DNA of 64,000 bases from Hyphomicrobiales bacterium 4NK60-0047b. GTDB lineage: Bacteria; Pseudomonadota; Alphaproteobacteria; Rhizobiales; HXMU1428-3. The stretch spans positions 248,001 to 312,000 of the forward strand of contig BAABWY010000001.1 in NCBI GenBank assembly GCA_040367435.1. Reading direction: 5' to 3'. The translations under genes were made by a program, and so were the position numbers. How positions within the stretch are numbered: position 1 is the stretch's first letter; each line of letters begins with the position of its first letter. The notes below the pieces were generated by a model. The model had not been told where the DNA came from. It worked only from the letters and a program-made list of their open reading frames with translations, and made no database searches. Positions 4,278 through 55,949 of the stretch are shown piece by piece.

Positions 4278-4382
4278 ATCATTTAAGACATGTGTCGTTT
4301 GTAAACTTGAATAATCTCACTAGACCCACTAAAAGAGAAAAACGAAATTTTATATCGAACCAAAGATTAAGTAAGATGCGAC

Positions 4383-4412
4383 GGTTGCTGGTGGGCAACT
4401 GAAGGAACACTA
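4383..4412 (+). repeat. Family A hairpin containing the aroQ ribosome binding site
   Basis: GGTTGC (4383-4388), loop TGGTGG (4389-4394) and GCAACT (4395-4400) form the hairpin. Directly after it GAAGGA (4401-4406) is the only good Shine-Dalgarno sequence for aroQ, 8 bases before its ATG. In this copy the conserved 3' GAAG of the repeat is therefore used as the ribosome binding site, and the hairpin sits immediately upstream of it. Confidence 0.7.
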
Positions 4413-4414
4413 AT

Positions 4415-4855
4415 ATGTCAAAACCAATTTATGTCCTTAGTGGCCCAAATCTGAATATGCTGGGCCAAAGAGAACCAGAAATTTACGGGTCTCAAACTTT
4501 GGATGATATTCATAAGTCATTAAGTGAAAAGGCTGCAAAGCACGGCAAAGATGTGAAGTGCTTTCAATCCAATCATGAAGGGCAATTAGTCGATTTTATT
4601 CAAGAAGCAGGCAATAAAGCATCTAGTTTAATTATTAATGCTGGCGCTCTAACTCACACATCTGTTGCAATAGCAGATGCGATAAGAGCCATTGACATTC
4701 CCGCAATAGAAGTCCACATGTCTAACGTTTACCAAAGAGAGGTATTTAGGCATCATTCCTATTTATCTCCCGTGGTAATTGGTCTAATTTGTGGGTTTGG
4801 ATCGCAATCCTATGAATTGGCGCTTGATGTTCTCGTAACTGACGCGCAAAAATAG
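4415..4855 (+). CDS. aroQ: Type II 3-dehydroquinate dehydratase
   Basis: Third step of the shikimate pathway: 3-dehydroquinate to 3-dehydroshikimate, cytoplasmic, usually a dodecamer. The 146-residue length is normal for the type II enzyme. Visible motifs are the N-terminal GPNLNMLG with the following flexible lid REPEIYG carrying the catalytic Tyr, FQSNHEG, IINAGALTHTS with its substrate-binding residues, and the EVHMSN histidine region. The ribosome site lies in the hairpin repeat directly upstream. accB and accC follow after about 120 bases, the usual order in this bacterial group. Confidence 0.95.
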   Translation: MSKPIYVLSGPNLNMLGQREPEIYGSQTLDDIHKSLSEKAAKHGKDVKCFQSNHEGQLVDFIQEAGNKASSLIINAGALTHTSVAIADAIRAIDIPAIEVHMSNVYQREVFRHHSYLSPVVIGLICGFGSQSYELALDVLVTDAQK

Positions 4856-24233: not shown

Positions 24234-24349
24234 ATGCTCAGGTTCTATAGCGCTCCTCCCAAAGATGGCAACTGGTTTTGGGAATGCGCGGATGCTGGTG
24301 GGCATCCGAAGCGCATTAAAAAGGAACGCTAAAAAAAGAACCTGAGCAT
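24234..24349. repeat. Nested inverted repeat containing family C and family A hairpins
   Basis: Outer arms ATGCTCAGGTTCT (24234-24246) and AGAACCTGAGCAT (24337-24349) are exact 13-bp inverses. Inside lie a family C core (24258-24282) and a complete family A hairpin (24283-24317: AATGCGC/GCGCATT outside, GGATGC/GCATCC inside, loop TGGTGG, bulge GAA). It separates the LysM and ABC exporter genes, both on the minus strand. Confidence 0.7.
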
Positions 24350-30165: not shown

Positions 30166-30275
30166 CATTGCCTTCTTCAGGCAATGGGACATGGCAGCGC
30201 CAGCTGACCGTTGCCTAGCACTGCCTCTCGGAGTGCCCGCCGCTTCAGCGGCGGAATAGCACGTGAGAGAAAAAA
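30166..30275 (+). repeat. Family B structured repeat
   Basis: Order of parts: hairpin CATTGCCT/AGGCAATG (30166-30186), GGACATGGCAGC (30187-30198), a GC-rich middle, CCTCTCGGAG, hairpin CCGCCGC-TTCA-GCGGCGG, and CACGTGAGAGAAAA. The copy at 46949 has the same order with different but still self-complementary hairpin sequences, so the stems rather than their sequence seem to be kept. Confidence 0.65.
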
Positions 30276-30307
30276 TGCCGATGCTGGTGGGCATCTGAAG
30301 CCTCATT
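30274..30307 (+). repeat. Family A hairpin after cysS
   Basis: GATGC (30280-30284), loop TGGTGG, GCATC (30291-30295), then TGAAG. AATG (30274-30277) and CATT (30304-30307) give a partial outer stem. It begins inside the A-run that ends the family B element. Confidence 0.7.
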
Positions 30308-30318
30308 AAAAACCTTCC

Positions 30319-54928: not shown

Positions 54929-55131
54929 CGGATGCTTAGTGGGCATCAGAAGCAAAGAGAAGAGTAACTTGAAGGAGCATCTAAAAAGAGACGGTTGTTC
55001 GTGGCGGTTTCTGGTGGGAAACTGAAGCCACACTAATAAAGTGCCGGTTGCTAGTGGGCAACTGAAGGCACATTAAAAAGAGCATCTGAAGCCACACTAA
55101 AAAGAGCAACCTGAAGGAGTATCTAAATAGA
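54929..55131 (+). repeat. Cluster of family A hairpins ahead of moaD
   Basis: Three full copies are present. 54929-54953 has GATGC/GCATC and loop TTAGTGG. 55001-55031 has outer GTGGC/GCCAC, inner GGTTTC/GAAACT, loop TGGTGG. 55041-55071 has outer GTGCC/GGCAC, inner GGTTGC/GCAACT, loop TAGTGG. Between and after them lie three 3' half-copies (GAAGGAGCATCTAAAAAG, GCATCTGAAGCCACACTAA, GCAACCTGAAGGAGTATC). The last provides the GAAGGAG ribosome site of moaD. Neighbouring copies use different but matched stems. Confidence 0.78.
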
Positions 55132-55383
55132 ATGAAAATTTTATATTTTGCGTGGGTCCGAGAAAAAATTGGCAAATCACAAGAAGACCTTGATGTTCCA
55201 AATTCTGTAAACACCGTCTCTGATTTAATTACATGGCTAGAGTCCAAAGGACCTGAATATCAAGCTGCCTTTGAAAATAAAGAAACCATTAACTCAGCCA
55301 TTAATCAAACGCACGTTGACCATCAAACACCGCTCAACAATGCAAGTGAAATCGCCTTTTTCCCCCCTGTAACAGGCGGCTGA
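55132..55383 (+). CDS. moaD: Molybdopterin synthase sulfur carrier subunit
   Basis: 83 residues, ubiquitin-like fold ending in the essential FFPPVTGG; the C-terminal glycine carries the thiocarboxylate used to build molybdopterin. The start MKILYFAWVREKIGK is typical. The ribosome site GAAGGAG comes from a half-copy of the hairpin repeat. The TGA stop also lies in a repeat tail (GGCTGAAGCAGCATTAA). moaE, its partner subunit, follows. Confidence 0.95.
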   Translation: MKILYFAWVREKIGKSQEDLDVPNSVNTVSDLITWLESKGPEYQAAFENKETINSAINQTHVDHQTPLNNASEIAFFPPVTGG

Positions 55384-55408
55384 AGCAGCATTAACCCGGC
55401 GATTGCTC

Positions 55409-55440
55409 GTGCCAGATGCATAGTGAGCATCTGAAGGCAC
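55409..55440 (+). repeat. Family A hairpin between moaD and moaE
   Basis: Outer stem GTGCC (55409-55413)/GGCAC (55436-55440), inner AGATGC/GCATCT, loop ATAGTGA, bulge GAA (55433-55435). A half-copy, GGCAACCTGAAGGAGCATTAA, follows and supplies the moaE ribosome site. Confidence 0.78.
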
Positions 55441-55472
55441 ATTAAAAGAGGCAACCTGAAGGAGCATTAAAA

Positions 55473-55949
55473 ATCACCATTCGCATCCAAACAGAAGATT
55501 TCGACATAACAAAAGAAATCAATGCGCTAAAACAAGAGCGCAGCAAACAGGGCAAACAAGATATCGGTGCCATTGTCACCTTCACAGGCACTGTGCGCGA
55601 TATGGCAGGAACAACACCGATTAGCTCAATGTGTCTCGAACACTACCCAGGCATGACAGAAAAAGAACTCAGCGATATCGCTGAAGAAGCAAATGAGAGA
55701 TGGCCACTCTTAGGTACAACCATCATTCACCGCATCGGAGAGTTAGCGCCTGGCGATAATATAGTTCTCGTCATCACCCTCTCCTCCCATAGACACGCCG
55801 CCTTCGAAGCAGCTGATTTCCTTATGGACTTCCTAAAAAGCAAAGCCCCTTTCTGGAAAAAAGAACAACCTCTCGAAGGAGACGCCAATTGGGTGGATGC
55901 GCGAGACAGCGACAAGAAAGCGCTTTCTCGTTGGGAAAAACAAAACTAA
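55473..55949 (+). CDS. moaE: Molybdopterin synthase catalytic subunit, apparent ATC start
   Basis: 158 residues if translation begins at ATC 55473. From there the frame reads (I/M)TIRIQTEDFDITKEI and then DIGAIVTFTGTVRD, exactly the conserved N-terminus of MoaE. Later HYPGMTEKEL, IIHRIGELAPGD, RHAAFEAADFLMDFLKSKAPFWKKE with the catalytic lysines, and WVDARDSD. A GAAGGAG site lies 8 bases before the ATC. Upstream in frame to the TAA at 55443 there is no ATG, GTG or TTG; the first ATG (55593) would remove 40 conserved residues. Either ATC is a real rare start or the base is an error for ATG. With MoaD it inserts sulfur into precursor Z. Confidence 0.88.
   Translation: MTIRIQTEDFDITKEINALKQERSKQGKQDIGAIVTFTGTVRDMAGTTPISSMCLEHYPGMTEKELSDIAEEANERWPLLGTTIIHRIGELAPGDNIVLVITLSSHRHAAFEAADFLMDFLKSKAPFWKKEQPLEGDANWVDARDSDKKALSRWEKQN

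Follow-up and report, generated by a model that had tools for sequence, protein, structure and literature searches.

In the genome of Hyphomicrobiales bacterium 4NK60-0047b (G000), moaE carries an ATC triplet at the position of its start codon, and comparison with its relatives identifies this as a single ATG-to-ATC change at a conserved initiation site. The reading that we prefer, and hold to be probable, is that moaE is genuinely but weakly initiated at AUC, at a reduced rate; a wrong or mixed base ranks second and a recent null allele third. The window, i.e. the whole stretch of DNA that was analysed, comprises 64,000 nt, in which the moaE coding region including the stop codon (158 residues) occupies 55473-55949 on the plus strand. 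The predicted protein matches PF02391 with 122.3 bits (cut-off 23.4), and its residues 2-155 match the solved MPT synthase subunit 2. The adjoining moaD (ThiS family; 55132-55383, plus strand) starts with ATG. A second copy of moaE in G000 was ruled out, as none was found in the genome.

The ATC (55473-55475, plus strand) is followed by ACC ATT CGC, the beginning of the N-terminal sequence TIRIQTEDFDI, and the window reads GAAGGAG CATTAAAA ATC ACC ATT CGC ATC CAA. The Shine-Dalgarno sequence GAAGGAG is located at 55458-55464 (plus strand), leaving a gap of 8 nt (55465-55472) to the ATC. Upstream, the frame is closed by a TAA at 55443-55445 (plus strand), and between this stop and the ATC it is open (KRQPEGALK-ITIRIQ) and contains no ATG, GTG or TTG. 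These three points, the ATC opening the conserved MoaE N-terminus, the spacing of the Shine-Dalgarno sequence and the lack of a canonical start, had been put forward in a first-pass annotation and were confirmed. The annotation had further stated that use of the next ATG would delete 40 conserved residues; a loss of this size applies to the GTG at 55593-55595 (plus strand, codon 41), the first canonical in-frame start, whereas the first in-frame ATG follows only at 55602 (codon 44). As to its central proposal that moaE starts with ATC, the position of the triplet and the missing canonical start stand as observed, and that AUC is used is what we infer from them together with the evidence below. 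A separate observation is a 9-codon ATG-TAA frame at 55416-55445, which lies inside a hairpin repeat (see below), is in frame with moaE and ends 27 nt before the ATC.

Initiation of translation elsewhere was considered very improbable. The candidates are GTG 55593, ATG 55602, ATT 55479, ATC 55485 and the short upstream frame, from which moaE would be reached by read-through or re-initiation. GTG 55593 has in its favour that it is canonical, but the 40 residues that it would drop mostly align to the solved MPT synthase subunit, and ATT 55479 and ATC 55485 are more distant from the Shine-Dalgarno sequence. The upstream frame does offer an in-frame ATG, but by reading no Shine-Dalgarno sequence was visible before it, and moaD lies in another frame than moaE.

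moaE was found in all eight genus genomes, i.e. G000 and seven genus mates (G001-G007). The codon homologous to the ATC is ATG in six of the seven mates (G001, G002 and G004-G007), and in G003 an ATG is located four codons before it, which argues for a single change and not for a conserved trait. The first-pass annotation had suggested looking for a non-ATG start in close relatives; none of the seven mates has one, and a conserved regulatory ATC as a trait of the genus was thereby ruled out. For the same reason a start codon that has long been kept and tuned to IF3 appears less likely than a recent substitution. The sequence AAGGAG with an 8-nt gap is common to G000, G001 and G002, and G004 has AGAGAG at this place. 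In G006 a second, partial MoaE-like match with one internal stop was noticed (L089, C176:1340-1534), which is perhaps a fragment or derived from a contaminant contig.

The comparison was extended to 110 MoaE loci, 80 from a named collection, 29 from other relatives and the window's own, of which one was left out of the start test because its N-terminus could not be aligned. No more than 12 codons from the conserved MoaE N-terminus, 108 of the 109 testable loci had a canonical start, namely ATG in 86, GTG in 19 and TTG in 3 cases; these loci are not all independent, since the two collections may share species. The only moaE lacking one was that of the window. Between G000 (200 kb) and G002 (169 kb), 147 non-overlapping orthologous frames were compared, and in 13 of them one genome had a canonical start of its own ahead of the first start common to both; inspected by eye, moaE was the only one of these that in one genome has no start at the conserved N-terminus. 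A second odd-start candidate, at position 134130 of the joined stretch, was dismissed because both G000 and G002 have ATG there. A literature search limited to moaE with a non-canonical start codon yielded no report.

A lone odd start codon is also what a single wrong base may produce. The C at 55475 might stem from an error in sequencing or assembly, or represent a minority base, the strain itself having ATG as its genus mates do, and the start site adjoins a repeat array. This explanation is nevertheless regarded as unlikely. The G000 assembly consists of 26 contigs with 99.67% completeness and 0.04% contamination, and 106 of 113 matched G002 genes (at least 150 aa) had an open frame in G000 across 90% or more of their length, the remaining seven having in-frame stops exclusively at query residue 43 or before. 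Conversely, G002 had an open frame for 102 of 113 matched G000 genes; among the other 11, four showed stops at residue 20 or before and seven were partial matches, some of them plainly paralogues. Judged by contigs, completeness and open genes, the assembly looks sound.

An internal comparison is provided by infC, which in G000 reads GGAG, 8 nt, ATC GCA CGC CGA CCA ATG AAG. The arrangement of GGAG, 8 nt and ATC was present at infC in all six genus genomes that were read (G000-G005; loci L142 on C2 of G000, L162-L165 and L167), while infC of G006 was not included and G007 gave no match. The frame 5' of the infC ATC contained no canonical start in five of the six genomes, and in G005 a single TTG 42 codons away. 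We infer that infC uses ATC in this genus, the alternative being an ATG five codons later with no visible Shine-Dalgarno sequence. Because this geometry is the same as that at moaE and recurs in six of six genomes, AUC initiation is likely to be used in G000.

The moaE frame itself is intact and under constraint. Between G000 and G002, dN/dS was 0.087 (47 differences in 157 codons). With G004 as outgroup, 4 nonsynonymous and 10 synonymous changes were assigned to the G000 branch and 3 and 12 to that of G002; with G001 as outgroup the counts were 4 and 10 for G000 and 2 and 14 for G002. When both outgroups were combined, 3 nonsynonymous and 2 synonymous changes remained for G000 and 1 and 6 for G002, a tilt towards relaxed constraint in G000 that is based on very few changes. 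G005 was not used in this branch comparison. Three of the five private MoaE residues of G000 (Q21, I31 and E82) occur also in G006. These data show that moaE has been constrained along the G000 branch; they do not speak to the working of the present allele. As a side observation, synonymous divergence between G000 and G002 rises from a dS of 0.12 in moaD to 0.44 in moaE, a jump that recombination close to the repeats may explain, perhaps with a boundary there.

That present allele might be a recent null, in which AUC is used too little, no MoaE is made and the molybdenum cofactor is absent. We consider this improbable, more so than a wrong base. moaE is single-copy, its ATC is shared by no relative and the two-outgroup counts tilt the same way; against a null allele speak the low dN/dS and a frame with neither stop nor frameshift. 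G000 has moreover retained molybdopterin enzymes, with six PF00384 matches, some of which could be NuoG-like, and one PF02738 match, but a very recent loss would look identical.

Weak initiation at AUC is thus weighed on both sides. In its favour are the single moaE, the ATG in the mates, the AAGGAG with 8-nt gap in G001 and G002, the dN/dS, the branch counts with G004 as outgroup, the recurrence in G006 of three private residues, the presence of molybdopterin enzymes, the infC with the same ATC geometry and the activity of AUN starts in other bacteria; counted against it are the restriction of the ATC to G000, the two-outgroup branch counts and a Shine-Dalgarno sequence that is mostly paired in the predicted fold. 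The use of AUC at moaE is argued from the constrained frame, the kept Shine-Dalgarno sequence and spacing, and the infC geometry. In the proposed course of events, the third base of the start codon would have changed from G to C in the G000 lineage, and the 30S subunit would still bind the well-spaced GAAGGAG. Of the three bases of AUC, only the first two pair with the anticodon CAU of the initiator tRNA; fMet-tRNA would initiate through these two bases, and full-length MoaE with fMet as first residue would be made at a lower rate, perhaps about one tenth of that of AUG by analogy to AUU and AUA starts elsewhere. As MoaE is a catalytic subunit, a low level may suffice, and by the same analogy its expression should be low yet useful. 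According to the accessible text of PMC10158994, IF3 excludes weak third-base pairs. Sensitivity of moaE to IF3 is a prediction; the first-pass annotation had spoken of initiation factor levels in general.

Folding predictions gave a mean unpaired value of 0.02-0.20 for the moaE Shine-Dalgarno sequence in G000, varying with the length used; in three mates it was also predicted to be paired, to a lesser extent (0.06-0.51). A leader structure controlling the AUC was dropped as a candidate, since the folds vary with length and the comparison with the ATG alleles gave no clear difference. A search of the moaE leader for known RNA families returned none at the family cut-off, and a single match fell below it (E 0.35).

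The ribosome-binding site of moaE is supplied by a repeat. Between moaD and moaE lie 89 nt in G000 vs 13 nt in G002, and in G000 a two-level hairpin repeat occupies 55401-55472 (plus strand). Its imperfect outer arms, assigned by reading, are GATTGC (55401-55406) and GCAACC (55451-55456); the inner hairpin copy (55409-55440) reads GTGCC-AGATGC-ATAGTGA-GCATCT-GAA-GGCAC, and the tail TGAAGGAGCATTAAAA contains the moaE ribosome-binding site. An array of the same repeats precedes moaD (54938-55127, plus strand), where the tail CTGAAGGAG corresponds to the moaD Shine-Dalgarno sequence, so that GAAGGAG in the 3' tails of hairpins forms the Shine-Dalgarno sequence of both genes. In G002, moaD is followed by AAAGGAGCATAAAAAATG and the hairpin is absent. 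Because G001 and G004 carry such repeats at this site, G002 may have lost the hairpins while retaining the tail, the direction of the change being deduced from these two genomes.

These repeats belong to a family of nested hairpins with two stems and a Shine-Dalgarno-like tail that is nearly confined to the genus. In the window, copies are located at 4376-4419, 24284-24325, 30272-30315, 55039-55082 and 55407-55451. A pattern search allowing up to two mismatches detected 58 copies in G000 and none in a reversed control, and a model search at least 148, a lower bound since 150 of 2612 candidates were scored. The model matched 119 to 147 times in G001, G002, G004 and G005, 22 and 25 times in G003 and G007, and twice in G006; outside the genus, one weak match was obtained in 33 genomes. 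When 30 of the 33 extracted copies were aligned, with the three near-duplicates omitted and the structure drawn from the same sequences, the covariation score was 0.308 vs 0.092 in shuffles, and 34 alignment cells were changed on both sides vs 9.3, neither value being reached in 500 shuffles. Counted by pair, two-sided change was not unusual (5 pairs vs 4.3; 175 of 500 shuffles as high), and the same holds for further pair types (13 vs 11.1; 76 of 500).

Within their contigs, 142 of the 148 copies share the majority orientation. The element strand showed negative GC skew in 19 and positive AT skew in 22 of 23 non-overlapping loci (18 and 20 in an earlier set of 21), and from this skew hairpin orientation appears to track replication. 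Both flanks of 13 out of 16 copy clusters of G000 were found in G002, in a comparison that used 33 of 38 matches; for eight, the corresponding span contained a scored copy, one of these being the neighbouring moaD copy and not the moaD-moaE site, which leaves seven shared. Genome-wide, GCAACYTGAAGGAG occurred 5 to 12 nt before an ATG at 11 places and at none in the control; the frames that follow measure 83 to 499 aa for six of these ATGs and only 8 to 32 codons for the other five. It is this controlled genome-wide count that carries weight, and not the count in the window, where a single match was found and 10 of 100 shuffles had as many. A RAYT/Y1 transposase (PF01797) was absent from G000 and present in one of the eight genus genomes (G002, two matches), which rules out mobilisation of the hairpins by such an enzyme in G000.

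A broader model, which we regard as doubtful and offer as speculation, would see the hairpins as portable, replication-oriented and self-nesting translation leaders that carry in their tail GAAGGAGCAYTAAAA a ready-made ribosome-binding site, so that a copy inserted before a gene would take over its translation. The AUC of moaE would then be a tolerated or tuned weak start, and element turnover together with start-codon change would set the MoaD:MoaE ratio and link it to initiation fidelity. Independently of this model, the family is a separate lead on intergenic repeats as a source of ribosome-binding sites. Gene finders restricted to ATG, GTG and TTG would miss moaE or trim 40 residues from it. 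If the AUC is used, a metabolic enzyme would join the short list of genes other than infC with AUN starts, and the related ATG alleles would be natural controls for the cost of AUC and the effect of IF3; if it is unused, the strain should be without molybdoenzyme activity.

Among known repeats, the hairpins resemble the GTAG- and CGTC-tagged REP palindromes, as described in the part of PMC3733652 consulted, in being short, high-copy, intergenic palindromes with compensatory changes in a covarying stem. The same text states that CGTC repeats predominate in Alphaproteobacteria without a dedicated transposase and mainly form head-head dimers whose stems measure 8-9 bp. Unlike REP elements, the hairpins are arranged head-to-tail, nested and in one orientation per contig, and their two stacked stems carry a GAA bulge, with a tail that resembles a Shine-Dalgarno sequence. 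A terminal unpaired GTAG or CGTC tag was not found: in 14 strict hairpins (200 kb), the 4 nt before the inner stem were never GTAG, and were GTGC in five, CGAC in two and seven other sequences once each. CGAC with the next base gives GACG, i.e. CGTC on the other strand.

Non-canonical AUN starts are already known as a kind. Reportedly, all 64 start codons were measured in E. coli by Hecht et al., and a paper is said to treat start codons in Deinococcus deserti. Of the features of AUN-start genes, moaE shows the lack of a canonical start and a Shine-Dalgarno sequence at working distance, while retention in relatives is not seen. In E. coli, the near-cognate start of infC is used by IF3 for autoregulation. 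According to the accessible portion of PMC5472188, the infC start is ATT in that species and ATC in Streptomyces. moaE shares with infC a near-cognate start and the lack of a canonical one close by, and infC of the genus has the same GGAG and 8-nt gap; unlike the moaE ATC, which is private to G000, the infC ATC is common to the genus. The same portion of PMC5472188 describes Streptomyces sigR, with a GTC start that is repressed by IF3 by experiment. Like sigR, moaE is a gene other than infC with a non-canonical start and a predicted IF3 sensitivity; the GTC codon, the role as stress sigma factor and the experimental test are features of sigR.

For S. aureus cvfC1 (AUU) and ccpN (AUA), reporter output in poor medium was about 10% of that with AUG (PMC13009471, as far as its accessible text goes), an example of bacterial AUN starts that work at this level behind a strong Shine-Dalgarno sequence. 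moaE is like these in having an AUN start behind a strong Shine-Dalgarno sequence and differs in that the cvfC1 and ccpN starts are, in that text, conserved among relatives and shown by ribosome profiling. The AUU start of Borrelia burgdorferi pncA is, unlike the ATC of moaE, shown by experiment and structure in the consulted part of PMC13398362. Like moaE, pncA encodes an enzyme of metabolism that is deprived of its conserved N-terminus when only canonical starts are allowed.
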